Assembly: GCA_903872155.1 (NCBI GenBank)
Contig: CAIQJP010000092.1
Span: 1 to 64,000, forward strand
From: an uncultured Actinomycetes bacterium
GTDB taxonomy: Bacteria; Actinomycetota; Acidimicrobiia; Acidimicrobiales; Ilumatobacteraceae
Direction: 5' to 3'
DNA: 64,000 nt
Shown here in pieces: positions 4,795 to 11,258 of this stretch. The notes beneath the pieces are model-generated. The model was not told the DNA's origin. It did no database searches and worked only from the letters and a program-made list of their open reading frames with translations. A program made the position numbers and the translations under genes. Each line of letters starts with the position of its first letter. Positions within the stretch are counted from its first letter, which is position 1.

Positions 4795-6165
4795 ATGACA
4801 CGATCCATGAGTTTGGGGACTCCAGGATCACGGCGGCGCTCACGCGCGCTCGCCGCGGTCGTTGCTGGTGGTCTGTTCTTTGTTGCCTGTGGTGGTGACG
4901 ATGGCGGTAGTACGCCAGCGGCGACCGAAGCACCGGTAACAAGCGAAGCTCCAGCGACTGATGCACCGATGACTTCGGATGTATCAGCCACTGATGCACC
5001 TGCTGGCGAAGATGGCCCGCCGACAGGTCCAGAAATGCTGGTCGGAATGGTGAACACTGAAGGCAATCCCAACGGACTTGACTTCCCAGACATTCGTCGT
5101 TTTGCCGAGGCAAGTTTTGAATACATGAATGCGCATGGCGGCTTTGGTGGTCGACCAGTCAAGCTTGAGACCTGTGTCGCTGGCGGAACTCCAGAGACAT
5201 CACAAGCCTGTGCACAAGAGTTGGTTGGTAAGGGTGTCGAGTTAATCCTTCTCGGGTTGGACTTGTTCCCAGACTTCGCAACCTATGAAGCAGCTGGCGT
5301 GCCGGTTATCGGCGTATTGCCGATCTTGCCGCCTGACTTCACTGCTAACGCATTGTTCTTGACCGGCGGAAATGCGACGACGACTGCTGTGATGGCAGTC
5401 ATCGCTCAGGACCGCTATCAGGCCAAGACTGTCGGCATCATTCATGCTGACAATGCTGGAGCTAACTCGACTGCCGCAGGCGTTGAAGCGGCTCTTGATA
5501 AGGCTGGAATTACTTGGAAGGCCGTCAAGGGTGGAGACAACGAAACCGATGCTGGCTATCTCGGTTTGATGCAGGCTGCCAATGCTGATGATCCTGATCT
5601 TTTGATCTCGCTCTACGCAGACGCTGGCTGTATCGGAACCATTCGTGGCTACGCCACTGCTGGAATCACCAAGCCCGTGTTGACAACCAGCATTTGCTCA
5701 GACAGTGACGTCATTTCTCAAGTGGGCGATGATGCAACTAATTGGGTATTCGTTGGTGCAACTCCCGAGCGCGACACGCCTGAAAAGGCATTGCTGCAAT
5801 CGATTGTGGCTCCTTTCATCAAGGATGAGGCAACTGGCGAAATGGGTATCGAGCCCGCTGATGTCAAGACAGGTGCTCTTGGTCTTGGTGGTTTGGGTAC
5901 CGTTTTGGTGTTGTCGCTTCGCAACTTCGCCGCAGAAATGGTTGCTGGTGGAACCGAAATGACTGGTCAGAATCTGTACGACTTCTTGAAGTCAGCCGAT
6001 GGCCTGTTCTTGTACGGAGGCATCACACCAGTCAAGTGTGGTCTTGCCACACCGAGTTACCCGTCAATTTGTTCGTACGTCTTTGAGGCGACCGAATACA
6101 AAGATGGCGCGGTCGTTTCCGTTGATGATGGCAAGTTGTGGGACAGCACCCCACTTCTTCCCTGA
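4795..6165 (+). CDS. Branched-chain amino acid-type ABC transporter substrate-binding lipoprotein
   Basis: 456 residues: a signal peptide with arginines, a hydrophobic stretch and lipobox FVAC (Cys about residue 33), then a Thr/Ala/Pro-rich tether of some 45 residues, then a type I periplasmic-binding fold of the LivK/Peripla_BP_6 kind beginning at LVGMVNTEGNPNG. GAGGGGG precedes the ATG. Liv-type receptors bind amino acids but also aromatic acids, amides and other small solutes. With the cleavage oxygenase upstream and the fused permease 45 bp downstream, I infer a receptor for that enzyme's substrate. No LivG or LivF gene accompanies it in this cluster. Confidence 0.9.
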   Translation: MTRSMSLGTPGSRRRSRALAAVVAGGLFFVACGGDDGGSTPAATEAPVTSEAPATDAPMTSDVSATDAPAGEDGPPTGPEMLVGMVNTEGNPNGLDFPDIRRFAEASFEYMNAHGGFGGRPVKLETCVAGGTPETSQACAQELVGKGVELILLGLDLFPDFATYEAAGVPVIGVLPILPPDFTANALFLTGGNATTTAVMAVIAQDRYQAKTVGIIHADNAGANSTAAGVEAALDKAGITWKAVKGGDNETDAGYLGLMQAANADDPDLLISLYADAGCIGTIRGYATAGITKPVLTTSICSDSDVISQVGDDATNWVFVGATPERDTPEKALLQSIVAPFIKDEATGEMGIEPADVKTGALGLGGLGTVLVLSLRNFAAEMVAGGTEMTGQNLYDFLKSADGLFLYGGITPVKCGLATPSYPSICSYVFEATEYKDGAVVSVDDGKLWDSTPLLP

Positions 6166-6210
6166 CCTGTTAACCACTACTGAGCAACAAATGAGACGGA
6201 GAATTTTACG

Positions 6211-8202
6211 ATGATTGATTATCTGTTTTATTTGTTGCTCGGTTGTGGGGCCGGGGCCATCATCGCTGGATTTGCGATGGGCCTCGTGATTAGTTATCAA
6301 GGTTCTGGCATTGTCAATTTCGCTTATGGGGCAATTGCAATGTGGAGTGCCTATGTCTATGCAGAACTCCGGAATGGGGCATATCTTTTCCCCATTCCGG
6401 GACTGCCAGACCGTTACCGCTTTAATCATGATGTCGGTTTCACATGGGCTTTTAGTCTGGCTTTATTGACTGCGGCCCTCATGGGTTTATTGATTTATGC
6501 GCTGATCTTTCGCCCGTTGAGAGATGCCCCGGCGTTGGCGCGTGTCGTGGCCAGTGTCGGTTTGATCATTGTCATGATTGGGCTCAAGGATCGCCGTTTC
6601 CCCGATCAGTTGGCGATGCGCGTCGATCCAATTTTGCCTCGCGAGGTAGTAACGATTACTGACAAGTTGCGCGTACCGCGTGACGGTTTGTGGTTGCTTG
6701 CAATCGTGCTTCTGATCACGGTTGTTGTGTGGGCCGCGAGCAAGTATTTACGTTTTGGGTTAGCCACGCGTGCAGCGGCTGAAAACGAAAAAGGAGCTGT
6801 ACTCCTGGGGCATTCGCCAGATTTCTTGGCCGCCTCGGGCTGGGTTATTTCATCGGTGGTTGGCGCCGTGATTGCAATTTTGGCCGCACCGTTGGTGCAG
6901 TTAAACGGTTCGATCTTTACCTTTGGCTTTTTAATCCCGGCCTTAGGTGCCGCCCTCATCGGAAAGTTCCGACATTTCTGGCCCACGGTATTAACGGGTG
7001 TCGCCATCGGAATGGTGCAAAGTACTTTCACCAAAATGCAACTTGATTTTAGTTGGTGGCCTCAATACGGAATGCGTGAAGGTCTGCCGTTTCTCGTCAT
7101 CATCGTCACGATGATTGTGTCGGGAGAGCGTCTTCCCGAAAGGGGTTCGGTGGGCGGTTGGAAATTGCCATTCGTTCCGCTGGCCAACGTGACGCGGCTC
7201 TCGGTTGGCGCTCCCCTCCTGATTGCATCGGCCGGAATTATCTTCCTTGGACCGCTGTGGCGGGCCGCCATTATGAGTTCGTTGATTGCATCGGTCTTGG
7301 CTTTGTCTTTAGTCGTTCTGATCGGTTTTGGCGGTCAGACATCGCTGGCACAAATGGCCTTTGCTGGCATTGGCGGATTTGCGCTGTCAAAGTTGGCGGG
7401 CAATTACTCGATCCCTTTTCCGATCGCGCCAATTCTTGCTGCTGCTGGCGCGGCGATTTTTGGGCTTTTGGTTGGGCTTCCCGCACTCAGAGTGCGCGGC
7501 ACCAACCTGGCGATTGTGACTCTCGCTGGTGGTGTCACCATTGCTGAATTCGTTTTCAAACAACCATGGGTGATCGGCGGGGTGAACAACGGGGGAGCCA
7601 AGGTCCCTAATCCATCACTAGGTGGCTGGAACCTGGGTCTCATTTATGGCAATAAAACGTCTCGACCTATTTTCGCCTTCTTCTTGCTAGCGATCTTGAC
7701 GATTTTGTGTTTGATGGTTGCCAACATTCGTCGTAGTGGTTCGGGACGCGTGATGTTGGCTGTTCGCAGTAACGAACGGGCATCAGCGGCCATTGGTATT
7801 AACAACACCCGGGTAAAGATGATGATGTTTGCTCTCTCATCGTTTATCGCCGGAATGGGTGGCGCATTGCTGGCTTATCGGTTCGGAGCAGTCTCTGATC
7901 TTTCCTACGGAACTATCGCTTCGCTGACTGCGTTGTCGTTCGCATATCTAGGTGGCATTACGAGCGTCAGTGGCGCAATTGCAGCAGGTGTTTCGGCAGC
8001 ATCGGGGGTTTCTTTCTTCGCTATGAATCAAGTATTTGGTTCGTTTGGTCGTTGGGAGGCTCTCATCGGTGGAGTGTTGTTAATTGTGACGGCGATTTTG
8101 AACCCTGAAGGAATCGCCGGCGGAATTCGTATGCAGGTTGCTGCCAAACGCCAACAAAAAGAATTGGCCAAACAGGAAAATGCCGTGTTGGCTTCGGCCT
8201 AG
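6211..8202 (+). CDS. LivH-LivM fusion permease of a Liv-type ABC transporter
   Basis: 663 residues containing two membrane permease domains normally made as separate proteins. Residues 1 to about 310 match LivH (GSGIVNFAYGAIAM near residue 30, and the coupling segment with RAAAENEKGAVLLGH). Residues about 340-640 match LivM (GQTSLAQMAFAGIGGFAL, then LPALRVRGTNLAIVT and AVRSNERASAAIGI). At least 15 hydrophobic segments are visible. ACGGAG precedes the ATG. It must pair with ATPases encoded elsewhere, possibly the LivF or LivHMG proteins at 47-51 kb. A lipoprotein series follows 47 bp after the stop. Confidence 0.92.
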   Translation: MIDYLFYLLLGCGAGAIIAGFAMGLVISYQGSGIVNFAYGAIAMWSAYVYAELRNGAYLFPIPGLPDRYRFNHDVGFTWAFSLALLTAALMGLLIYALIFRPLRDAPALARVVASVGLIIVMIGLKDRRFPDQLAMRVDPILPREVVTITDKLRVPRDGLWLLAIVLLITVVVWAASKYLRFGLATRAAAENEKGAVLLGHSPDFLAASGWVISSVVGAVIAILAAPLVQLNGSIFTFGFLIPALGAALIGKFRHFWPTVLTGVAIGMVQSTFTKMQLDFSWWPQYGMREGLPFLVIIVTMIVSGERLPERGSVGGWKLPFVPLANVTRLSVGAPLLIASAGIIFLGPLWRAAIMSSLIASVLALSLVVLIGFGGQTSLAQMAFAGIGGFALSKLAGNYSIPFPIAPILAAAGAAIFGLLVGLPALRVRGTNLAIVTLAGGVTIAEFVFKQPWVIGGVNNGGAKVPNPSLGGWNLGLIYGNKTSRPIFAFFLLAILTILCLMVANIRRSGSGRVMLAVRSNERASAAIGINNTRVKMMMFALSSFIAGMGGALLAYRFGAVSDLSYGTIASLTALSFAYLGGITSVSGAIAAGVSAASGVSFFAMNQVFGSFGRWEALIGGVLLIVTAILNPEGIAGGIRMQVAAKRQQKELAKQENAVLASA

Positions 8203-8249
8203 TTGACTAAGGTCGGGGCAAATATTTACACAATCGCCTGGAGGCAAAA

Positions 8250-8585
8250 GTGAAGAAGTTTGTCGGTTTAGTGGTTTCAGCAGTTGCGGTCATTGGCTTG
8301 TCATCATGTGGTGGCGATGATGGTGGCACCGGATCAGGCTCCGGTTCGGGCGATGCCCAAAAAGTGATCGATGCCCTCGTGAGTTCGGCGTCCGAATCAG
8401 ACGTGACTATTGACGCGGCGTGCGTCGCGGACGTGGTCAACAAACTTGGCGAAGCAGATTTGGCCCTTGTTGTGGACAATCTTGCTGGCTTGGTCGATGG
8501 TTCAGTCGACATGACAACTTTGGACATTTCCGAGGAGGGCATTGCCACTCTTGAATCAACTTTTGATTGCGCCGTCGGCAGCTGA
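8250..8585 (+). CDS. Small secreted lipoprotein, member 1 of three
   Basis: 111 residues. The GTG start has GGAGG seven bases upstream. A short signal peptide ends in lipobox LSSC (Cys about residue 20), then an acidic Gly-rich GGDDGG linker and a mature domain of some 80 residues with two cysteines (DAACVADVV and FDCAVG) that could form a disulfide. The two following genes share this plan. The family looks typical of small acidimicrobial lipoproteins but I know no function. A TTGACT box overlaps the stop of the permease gene, with TACACA 18 bases on, a weak promoter candidate. Otherwise it could be read through from the Liv operon. Confidence 0.75.
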   Translation: MKKFVGLVVSAVAVIGLSSCGGDDGGTGSGSGSGDAQKVIDALVSSASESDVTIDAACVADVVNKLGEADLALVVDNLAGLVDGSVDMTTLDISEEGIATLESTFDCAVGS

Positions 8586-8639
8586 TCTGGCCTAAAAGTT
8601 GAAATACCCCTGTTTTCTAGGGAGCCTTGTTATAGTGAC

Positions 8640-8659
8640 TTTGTAATACGCAATTGCAT
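8640..8659 (+). promoter_or_regulatory. Upstream element of lipoprotein cassette, copy A
   Basis: TTTGTAAT, five bases, then ATTGCAT. The same arrangement recurs at 9228-9247 before the sister gene, while surrounding bases differ, so this part of the upstream region has been kept. It may be a promoter or activator site. Confidence 0.4.
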
Positions 8660-8677
8660 ATTACACACATAACGAAC

Positions 8678-8742
8678 GCGCTGGGAGGCGACATGAAAAA
8701 GGTATTAGGAATTTTGGCTGTATCAGCAGCTCTCGTTGGTTT
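8678..8742 (+). repeat. 65-bp exact direct repeat, copy A (RBS plus signal-peptide codons)
   Basis: Identical, base for base, to 9258-9322 at an offset of 580 bp. It covers the GGGAGG ribosome site, the ATG and the first 16 codons of the lipoprotein gene; divergence begins right after, at the lipobox. Confidence 0.9.
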
Positions 8743-9067
8743 TACCGCTTGTGGCGGAGACGACTCGGCTAACGAGGTCGGTACTGCGGCCGGCATTTTG
8801 GCTGCTCAACTTGAAGAAAAGGGCGCCGCTGAAGGTATCGCAATTGACGTCGATTGCGCAATCAAGAAATTGGTGACCTTGAGTGCTGAAGACCTCACAA
8901 TTTTGAGCGACAACATTGATGCGGACGTTGAAGACCTGACTGAAATTGGTGCATCTGAAAAAGCCAATACGGTACTTGGTCAGGTCGCTGACGAGTGCGC
9001 ATCGGCAAGCGAAGACGCTGCCGACGGCGGAGCTGATGACGGTAGCGCCGACACCACAATGCCCTGA
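8693..9067 (+). CDS. Small secreted lipoprotein, member 2 (tandem copy A)
   Basis: 124 residues. ATG at 8693 was chosen because GGGAGG stands just upstream and the sister copy begins identically; 13 further upstream codons are ignored. The lipobox is FTAC (Cys about residue 19), followed by GGDDS. The mature part carries IDVDCAIKKLVTLSAEDL and a second cysteine in ADECAS, then an Asp/Ala-rich tail ending DTTMP. The cysteine pair and SAEDL-type helix are shared with the next gene. It should be anchored on the outer face of the membrane; role unknown. Confidence 0.8.
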   Translation: MKKVLGILAVSAALVGFTACGGDDSANEVGTAAGILAAQLEEKGAAEGIAIDVDCAIKKLVTLSAEDLTILSDNIDADVEDLTEIGASEKANTVLGQVADECASASEDAADGGADDGSADTTMP

Positions 9068-9113
9068 TAGTTGCTCGTCTCGATTTATTTTGAAACACAA
9101 CTTGTAACAACTG

Positions 9114-9165
9114 AATCACCCGCTGCTGACGAAGCCAGTCTCGCCCGCAGCGGGTGATTTGTTTC
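9114..9165 (+). terminator. Hairpin terminator after lipoprotein copy A
   Basis: A 13-bp perfect stem pairs 9114-9126 with 9147-9159 (core TCACCCGCTGC/GCAGCGGGTGA) around a 20-base loop and runs into TTTGTTTC. The same hairpin recurs after copy B. Confidence 0.75.
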
Positions 9166-9227
9166 ACGAGGCCCGGCGAGGGGGATCTCGGACATTCAAA
9201 AGGTTCGTTGTTAGGGTGCGGGGGCAA

Positions 9228-9247
9228 TTTGTAATCACATATTGCAT
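9228..9247 (+). promoter_or_regulatory. Upstream element of lipoprotein cassette, copy B
   Basis: TTTGTAAT, five bases, then ATTGCAT, matching 8640-8659. It lies 25 bases before the ATG here and 33 before it in copy A, so the spacing to the gene has changed by 8 bp. Confidence 0.4.
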
Positions 9248-9257
9248 TCACATCTAG

Positions 9258-9322
9258 GCGCTGGGAGGCGACATGAAAAAGGTATTAGGAATTTTGGCTG
9301 TATCAGCAGCTCTCGTTGGTTT
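9258..9322 (+). repeat. 65-bp exact direct repeat, copy B (RBS plus signal-peptide codons)
   Basis: Exact partner of 8678-8742. Perfect identity including third codon positions next to a strongly diverged mature region points to recent duplication with fast change, or to gene conversion limited to the 5' end. Confidence 0.9.
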
Positions 9323-9632
9323 CACTGCCTGTGGCGGAGACGACTCCACTGACGCACAGGCCCAAGCAGTTGCTTCATTGGCGGCACAGGTCGAGGCAAA
9401 AGCCACCGAAGTTGGCGCAACGTTTGACGCGGAGTGTGCGATCAAGGAATTAGCCACCCTCAGCAGCGAGGACATTCAGCTTTTGACGGACAACATGGAT
9501 TCCGATGGGGACCCAGCCGACTACGGAGTCTCAGAAAAGGGTCAGGCCGCAGTTGAGAAGATAGGCAACGAATGTTTGGACTTGAGTGGCGCGCTTGCCG
9601 ATGACGGTAGTGCCGACACCACAATGCCCTGA
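9273..9632 (+). CDS. Small secreted lipoprotein, member 3 (tandem copy B)
   Basis: 119 residues, paralogous to the gene 206 bp upstream. The signal peptide is identical, with lipobox FTAC and GGDDS. The mature part keeps AECAIKELATLSSEDIQLLTDN and the second cysteine (GNECLDLS), but most other positions differ. The tail ADDGSADTTMP is again nearly identical to copy A. Signal peptide, cysteines and tail are therefore conserved and the surface between them has drifted. Function unknown; a surface-exposed or ligand-binding role for the variable part is a guess. Confidence 0.8.
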   Translation: MKKVLGILAVSAALVGFTACGGDDSTDAQAQAVASLAAQVEAKATEVGATFDAECAIKELATLSSEDIQLLTDNMDSDGDPADYGVSEKGQAAVEKIGNECLDLSGALADDGSADTTMP

Positions 9633-9680
9633 TAGTTGCCCGTTTCAATCTATTTCGAAACACAACATATAACTACTACA

Positions 9681-9731
9681 TCACCCGCTGTTGACGAGAC
9701 CAGTCTCGCCGGCAGCGGGTGAATTCTTTTT
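9681..9731 (+). terminator. Hairpin terminator after lipoprotein copy B
   Basis: Stem TCACCCGCTG (9681-9690) pairs with CAGCGGGTGA (9713-9722), with a possible inner stem CGAGA/TCTCG, followed by ATTCTTTTTC. It is the duplicate of the hairpin at 9114 and has a better T-run. Confidence 0.8.
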
Positions 9732-9734
9732 CTG

Positions 9735-9746
9735 GGTCATATGACC
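9735..9746. promoter_or_regulatory. 12-bp perfect palindrome GGTCATATGACC
   Basis: A fully symmetric 12-bp site directly after the copy B terminator and about 95 bp before the next gene. It may be an operator for the following lipoprotein/secreted-protein pair. The rest of this 208-bp gap holds only small inverted repeats (ACAACG/CGTTGT at 9783-9798) and an isolated TTGACA at 9780. Confidence 0.35.
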
Positions 9747-9840
9747 TATAGATCGTCTGTTTTTTACTCGTCATCTTCGTTGACAACGACACCGTTGTGG
9801 GGTTCCGAAGTCCCACAGTGTCGGCACGAAGGGAAGATTG

Positions 9841-10428
9841 ATGAAACGAAAATGGTTGATAACAGCGCTATGGGTTTTGGGTGCGTGTGGTGGAACATCA
9901 GGTGCCGTCGTTGGTGAGTTGCCCAGTACTGGACTTAATCCACTTGAGACAACTTCAAAGGTTCGCTCAACAACAACGATGCCCGCAGAAAAGTTTGAAC
10001 CGACCACTTTGACAATTGCTGCAGATCTTGAAAGTTCATTTGCCCAATTGATGCAAGCACGAATTGAGTGTGGTCGAGATCCATATTCATGTGATGTCGC
10101 GACCTTCACCGAAGTGAACAGTCCGATCTATCAAGACCTTAAGCAGCTCATTGAGACACGACGAAGTGCACATATCACCGCGACCGGTGGCGGATCGATT
10201 CGATATCGAATTGACAAAACGCAGGCCCTCTCTGATTCAAGTGCTCTTGTAGATACTTGCATTACCGATGATGTGGTGTTGGTTGATGGCGACATCATTT
10301 TTGATGACTCGATGATGAGCTCATTGGTGACTTTCACGTTGGTCAAGGTCGATGATCAATGGCTATGGAATAAGGGAACTCCCACTCGATGGATGACCGA
10401 GGAGGACTTATGCAACTTCGACGCATGA
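9841..10428 (+). CDS. Lipoprotein of unknown function, paired with a secreted protein
   Basis: 195 residues. The signal peptide begins MKRKW and ends in lipobox LGAC (Cys about residue 16). A Thr-rich linker leads to a domain of some 135 residues with DLESSFAQLMQARIECG, a predicted strand-rich half (VDTCITDDVVLVDGD), and a final VDDQWLWNKGTPTRW segment. The overall plan, helices first and a curved sheet later, resembles NTF2/SnoaL-like domains, but I make no firm assignment. ATG at 9841 has AGGGAAG upstream; a TTG at 9838 is the alternative. The next gene starts inside its last codons, so the two are coupled. Confidence 0.65.
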   Translation: MKRKWLITALWVLGACGGTSGAVVGELPSTGLNPLETTSKVRSTTTMPAEKFEPTTLTIAADLESSFAQLMQARIECGRDPYSCDVATFTEVNSPIYQDLKQLIETRRSAHITATGGGSIRYRIDKTQALSDSSALVDTCITDDVVLVDGDIIFDDSMMSSLVTFTLVKVDDQWLWNKGTPTRWMTEEDLCNFDA

Positions 10429-11258
10429 GTCTGGTTGGCCTTATTGTTTCATTGCTTGTGATGGTCTGTGCAGATGTGCATCGTCAAGTCCTTGCTGTCG
10501 ATGCACCGGTTGGAAGCGGTGGCGCCGATGGTGGTTCGATTTGGGCCGGTGTCCAAACATCTTCGCCACCGAATGGATCTGGTGTTGATTCATCGGGATA
10601 TCGATGGGTACCGGCAACCATTTACGACAGCGGCATCGGAGCAACAACTGGAATTACGAAGTTGGTCGGTTCAATTCGTTACGACCTATATGAACGACAC
10701 GCACCAGATGGTGGAATGACGTTGGTGTGGATCCCACGTCCGTCCACTGTACAACTGGCTCAGAATGCAGCGATCTTGGTGAGAGGTCGATTACCTCAAC
10801 CATCGGTGATGACCGCTCCACCAACTGATCATGTCGTAGTGAATGTTGGGATGTGGATGTGGGCGAATACCGACTGGTGGCATTCGGTAACGGCTATGGC
10901 GTGGGTTCCGACAGTGTTTGGTTCGGCGTGGGCGCGCACGACGGCAACTCCGATTCGACTTCGTTTCATTTCTCAAGATGACGGGACATCGAATGGTGGT
11001 TTAGTCGGAGCAATGGAGTGTGATGGGCCTGGCTTTGAATGGAGCGTTGCGATTGGTGACGAAGCGACATCGCCGTGTATGTACACCTATCAACATTCAT
11101 CTGCTAGCCGCGATGGGGGAGTCTTCGTTGGTGTTGTGTCAGTTGAATGGGAAATCTCATGGACGTCAAACACCGGCGGAAGTGGTTCATTGCCGTCGTA
11201 TACAACGAGTTCGTTTATCGCATTGAGGGTTGACGAACTTCAGGCACTCGTTGAATGA
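10410..11258 (+). CDS. Conserved actinobacterial secreted protein of unknown function
   Basis: 282 residues. ATG at 10410 follows GAGGAGG at ideal spacing and overlaps the upstream gene by 19 bp; the seven upstream codons are excluded. A hydrophobic signal segment (LVGLIVSLLVMVCA) precedes a secreted domain with WMWANTDWW, MECDGPGFEW, PCMYTYQHSSA and VEWEISWTSNTGG. From memory, this motif series recurs in actinobacterial exported proteins often mislabelled ATP/GTP-binding; no nucleotide motif is present. The single CDGPG and CMYTY cysteines may form a disulfide. Its 3' end overlaps the convergent EamA gene by 19 bp. Confidence 0.65.
   Translation: MQLRRMSLVGLIVSLLVMVCADVHRQVLAVDAPVGSGGADGGSIWAGVQTSSPPNGSGVDSSGYRWVPATIYDSGIGATTGITKLVGSIRYDLYERHAPDGGMTLVWIPRPSTVQLAQNAAILVRGRLPQPSVMTAPPTDHVVVNVGMWMWANTDWWHSVTAMAWVPTVFGSAWARTTATPIRLRFISQDDGTSNGGLVGAMECDGPGFEWSVAIGDEATSPCMYTYQHSSASRDGGVFVGVVSVEWEISWTSNTGGSGSLPSYTTSSFIALRVDELQALVE

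Follow-up and report, generated by a model that had tools for sequence, protein, structure and literature searches.

How can two adjacent genes of one small-lipoprotein family have nearly identical ends and strongly diverged middles? The question is raised by a locus in a window of 64,000 nucleotides, the whole stretch of DNA that was analysed, from an Ilumatobacteraceae genome of 2.81 Mb in 165 contigs (G000); the relatives compared with it are metagenome-assembled genomes. Three lipoprotein genes, lipA, lipB and lipC, stand there in tandem (Table 1). Their products are predicted to be bacterial lipoproteins with an N-terminal signal, a lipobox and a +1 cysteine (read by eye and from the alignment as MKK...GFTAC and MKK...GLSSC, each followed by GGDD). 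All three proteins contain the lipobox cysteine and two further cysteines, and are strongly acidic, with a pI of about 4. lipB and lipC each form a full cassette of upstream element, RBS, lipoprotein gene and terminator, with proper limits at about 8640–9160 and 9228–9730, respectively. The initial annotation had described a tandem duplication of such a cassette, a third member just upstream and a Liv-type permease ahead of the family. The tandem cassettes are present, the third member is lipA and the permease contains two PF02653 stretches, but the start of the interval given for the duplication is that of lipA and not of the duplicated cassette. The finer features that it listed (a common upstream element, 65 bp of exact identity, a nearly identical tail with the same terminator hairpin, a drifted middle and two conserved cysteines) were all recovered in the measurements below.

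Table 1. Coordinates of the features of the lip locus in the window
Feature	Position	Strand	Description
lipA	8250–8585	+	111-aa lipoprotein, two-cysteine domain, GTG start, RBS GGAGG
lipA, cluster position	8250–8585	+	Terminal gene after carotenoid-oxygenase, Liv-type binding protein and permease genes; kept behind the permease in relatives
B–C segment replacing the phoD-like gene of relatives	8589–9736	.	Homology to G007/G016 ends at 8588 and resumes at 9737
lipB upstream element	8640–8667	+	Exact motif match at 8640–8659; 24-nt palindrome within
65-nt identical stretch, copy 1	8678–8742	+	RBS and signal peptide; identical to 9258–9322
lipB	8693–9067	+	124-aa lipoprotein; middle unrelated to the lipB middle of G004
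lipB terminator hairpin	9116–9157	+	Strong fold
lipC upstream element	9228–9247	+	Exact motif match
65-nt identical stretch, copy 2	9258–9322	+	Identical to 8678–8742
lipC	9273–9632	+	119-aa lipoprotein; 97% identical in G004
lipC terminator hairpin	9681–9722	+	Strong fold

With the window genome in so many contigs and with metagenome-assembled relatives, the array could be a chimera of assembly, and the initial annotation had named an artefactual 65-bp identity as a reason to discard its reading. However, the 489-kb contig CANGIP010000001.1 of the sister species (G004), which comes from a separate assembly, carries the same A-B-C order with the same spacing and promoters, and the array is therefore not an assembly error. 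In addition, the lipC genes of the two species are not equal. A chimera was accordingly judged highly improbable.

The likeness of the ends begins upstream of the genes. The motif TTTGTAAT-N5-ATTGCAT has its only exact genomic copies ahead of lipB and lipC; with up to two mismatches, three matches were found in the window, as against 0.2 expected by chance. The 65-nt identical run was reached in 0 of 20,000 column shuffles, the largest shuffled run being 40, and the tail and terminator regions (9032–9164 and 9597–9729) are 86% identical over 133 nt. Along the genes, lipB and lipC agree at 95% of DNA positions over the signal peptide, at about 54% over the mature middle and at 82% over the final 45 nt. 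Synonymous sites have diverged by about 0.2 in the signal peptide and to saturation in the mature part. As judged from these comparisons, lipB and lipC are tandem paralogues with ends that are alike beyond chance and beyond synonymous expectation.

Such ends could also reflect a constraint at the regulatory or RNA level, with operator, leader and terminator requiring identity and the duplication being simply old. Consistent with this explanation, a 24-nt palindrome with 11 of 12 complementary pairs, TGTAATACGCAATTGCATATTACA, lies upstream of lipB at 8642–8665; no other palindrome in the window is as good (simulations gave an expectation of 0.25), and it is a candidate operator. The pairing of the terminator hairpins is likewise preserved, with folding z-scores of −4.1 and −5.7. 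However, the first 15 signal-peptide codons are identical, silent positions included, in all four B and C copies of the two species, whereas the signal peptides of lipA vary silently (dS 0.3–0.8), which makes the regulatory explanation unlikely. The hairpin was also considered as a mobile repeat and rejected, being present in just two copies genome-wide, the lipB and lipC terminators. Compared with that of the sister species, the lipB hairpin differs in its inner part and is kept as a hairpin, with identical outer arms and flanks. A sigma-70 promoter scan gave no match, and an Rfam search of 6000–11000 returned one sub-threshold chance match and nothing else.

Two causes of this pattern had been proposed in the initial annotation: recombination of the flanks, and rapid selection on the exposed part. 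The second, in which evasion of phages or grazers would drive positive selection on the mature protein while the ends are functionally constrained, has in its favour that the variable part is the exposed part of predicted surface lipoproteins. However, dN/dS above 1 was not found there. Between the two species, the ratio was measured to be about 0.1 for lipA (0.076/0.77) and about 0.23 for lipC (0.018/0.077), values that place both genes under purifying selection. In mature lipB, dN is 0.71 and dS is saturated, so that the ratio is not interpretable. A rapid adaptive burst would have kept the synonymous sites close; because those of the divergent lipB middle are saturated too, the middle has probably been replaced as a segment, or is an old paralogue, rather than having undergone a burst of amino acid changes. 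The signal-peptide DNA of lipA, moreover, is not frozen among relatives. Positive selection is thus very unlikely.

Flank recombination, the first of the two causes, fits the low signal-peptide dS beside a saturated middle, and is borne out further by comparison of the two species. Their alignment shows 92–100% identity up to about 4990 and 56–76% from there to about 8190, a stretch that covers the binding protein and permease. Identity is near 100% where the permease ends and lipA begins, and about 80% inside lipA. It is 100% from the end of lipA across the spacer and through the signal peptide of lipB (an identical run of 154 nt), falls to 39–63% in the lipB middle, and resumes at 90–100% at 9013 and on through lipC. 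Beyond the 15 shared codons, linked silent variants at codons 17 and 19 are crossed between loci and species: TTT..GCT is found in lipB of the window genome and lipC of the sister species, and TTC..GCC in lipC of the former and lipB of the latter. In the tree, lipB of the window genome clusters with the lipC genes and that of the sister species falls outside. The crossed haplotypes and the tree are both compatible with exchange between copies.

The tree is also compatible with differential loss, in which at least three ancestral tandem cassettes were present and each species lost one of them, not the same one, by unequal crossing-over in the similar ends. The two lipB genes would then be paralogues, and no foreign DNA would be involved. 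Identical ends around unrelated middles also agree with such a history, as do three-copy arrays found elsewhere in the family (G073), but no longer B–C array was seen among the 24 genomes of the genus. Differential loss from a larger array and imports fit the data equally well; taken by itself, loss is a possible history, somewhat short of an even chance, and forms a special case of the recombination reading preferred here.

The surroundings of the array have a history of their own. Relatives carry a PhoD-like phosphatase (PF09423), encoded on the reverse strand, between lipA and the gene that follows; it is present in all relatives with an examinable permease–lip locus and absent from the window genome and the sister species; it is also missing in the further genus members G001, G010, G011, G012 and G019. 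B–C cassettes, in turn, were found in 2 of the 24 genus genomes, these same two. Because DNA homology to G007 breaks off and resumes at the edges given in Table 1, the B–C unit is a 1148-bp replacement, and by synteny the pair stands in the place of the relatives' phoD. The window permease matches its G007 counterpart at 99% identity, whereas the flanking eamA DNA is just 77–95% identical. The permease of the sister species shares 87–90% amino acid identity with those of G014, G015 and others, and 73% with the window permease; because it thus falls within a different subclade of the genus, the neighbourhood has acquired foreign alleles more than once. Compared with window positions 5000–8190, both the binding protein and the permease of the sister species are a replacement from that subclade, with its edge at the permease stop codon.

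What kind of protein is carried by these cassettes? A profile search found the two-cysteine domain (consensus D-x-x-C-V...L-S-x-x-D-A...L-S-x-E-G...C) in 59 of the 222 Ilumatobacteraceae genomes, spread over 14 of the family's 27 genera; outside, it was found in one other family of the order (f53), with a few borderline matches beyond. All 16 aligned members keep both mature cysteines. No model in Pfam or NCBIfam matched the domain above the curated cut-off, Foldseek against the PDB gave no match at E ≤ 0.001, and the best hit of a PDB sequence-profile search (E 0.037) was unusable. Nothing relevant was found in the literature on tandem small lipoproteins in Acidimicrobiia. The domain is undescribed and almost entirely confined to Ilumatobacteraceae. 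Structure models show a small helical bundle at medium confidence (pLDDT 79); the mature domain is acidic and predicted to be all-helical, and its two conserved cysteines probably form a disulfide. An EF-hand-like DGDP motif seen in the alignment was rejected, as Gly6 and Glu12 are not kept and Pfam gave no match, and the one match to viral contigs was dismissed, being confined to the signal peptide. A search of genome contigs matched G004 and G006, along with weak matches in unrelated bacteria that were read as lipobox matches.

Tandem pairs or triples were found in at least 10 further genomes, and several proteins contain two copies of the domain. Because some tandem pairs group by locus in the tree (G058, G203, G073 and G345), duplication has happened repeatedly. 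Frozen ends are not a family-wide rule: among the other tandem sets, only that of G073 has similarly high signal-peptide identity (88–95%), and, of the two pairs in this set, one is recently duplicated and alike throughout. Domain paralogues in the window genome comprise the three array genes and one distant lipoprotein of 260 aa (contig C39, 3844–4626), in which the domain is fused to a C-terminal domain with no Pfam match; all are ORFs with starts. In G042, the domain forms the C-terminus of a protein of roughly 556 aa (locus L151, 1471–3141), and Pfam matched nothing in the N-terminal part of this protein.

The likely role was read from gene neighbourhood. Within the genus, lipA-type genes come after a carotenoid-oxygenase-like gene (RPE65), a Liv-type binding protein and a fused permease. 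Across loci L039–L051, one subclade of the genus has a lipA-type gene behind the permease and the other has a shorter subtype at the same position. At 13 loci in three other genera, a TetR regulator, orthologous between these loci, faces the family gene in convergent orientation. Enoyl-CoA hydratases, a P450 and Liv-type binding proteins occur in the vicinity of some family members; genes for TetR regulators and enoyl-CoA hydratases are both of common types. This neighbourhood weakly suggests substrate uptake. Because of these neighbours, the most likely role of Lip would be that of an exported accessory in substrate uptake and catabolism, an assignment offered tentatively and at less than even odds; the recombination account is much firmer.

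Overall, the explanation given the highest weight, with a probability of about 0.72, is as follows. lipB and lipC are transcription-ready cassettes of a lineage-specific small lipoprotein, born by tandem duplication. Their near-identical 5′ ends and 3′ tail and terminator may serve as crossover arms for homologous recombination between copies and with related strains, so that ends stay alike while whole middles are swapped or deleted. The exposed proteins are constrained rather than fast-evolving. They may act as exported partners in Liv-type uptake and in CoA-dependent catabolism, the substrates being small organic acids or hydrophobic compounds; lipB and lipC would be separately promoted copies. 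Alike ends and swapped middles are what the alignments contain, and from them we infer the recombination events; the B–C pair is known in two species, and strain mixing in metagenome-assembled genomes could create local mosaics. A more far-reaching version, in which the locus is modular and the middle of the new acidic two-cysteine domain is exchanged between strains through the conserved cassette ends to give a strain-specific uptake accessory or phage-exposed surface protein, is doubtful. The lip locus offers a small, well-bounded case in which exported proteins of abundant freshwater bacteria would change through cassette swaps instead of rapid point mutation. The locus also brings to light a domain that is widespread in Ilumatobacteraceae, repeatedly duplicated and missed by annotation libraries, with a possible and testable role beside Liv-type transporters.

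How does the locus compare with known systems? DUF732-type actinobacterial secreted proteins are short, exported and helical and contain two cysteines. Lip would resemble them in these features, and differs in having no Pfam or NCBIfam match above the curated cut-off. The pilE/pilS and vlsE-type cassettes of antigenic variation similarly have conserved ends around an exchangeable centre of a surface protein, but each lip copy comes with a start, RBS and terminator of its own; none of the four paralogues in the window genome is a silent promoterless donor copy. As a check for a diversity-generating retroelement, a crude YxDD scan was run; its one match lies within a long frame at 58.2 kb. The evolutionary mechanism itself is familiar. 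As in the concerted or mosaic evolution of tandem secreted-protein paralogues, which proceeds by gene conversion at conserved ends, the ends are homogenised at both 5′ and 3′ sides, the centre is divergent, the order is tandem and silent variants are crossed, although the lip array has just two to three copies compared between two species. Freshwater bacteria with larger genomes (>2.1 Mb) preferentially keep distant imports in exported proteins (PMC11039613). The present genome, at 2.81 Mb, lies above that size; that study was genome-wide and statistical, whereas a single locus is resolved here, and the recombination account of lip agrees with it.
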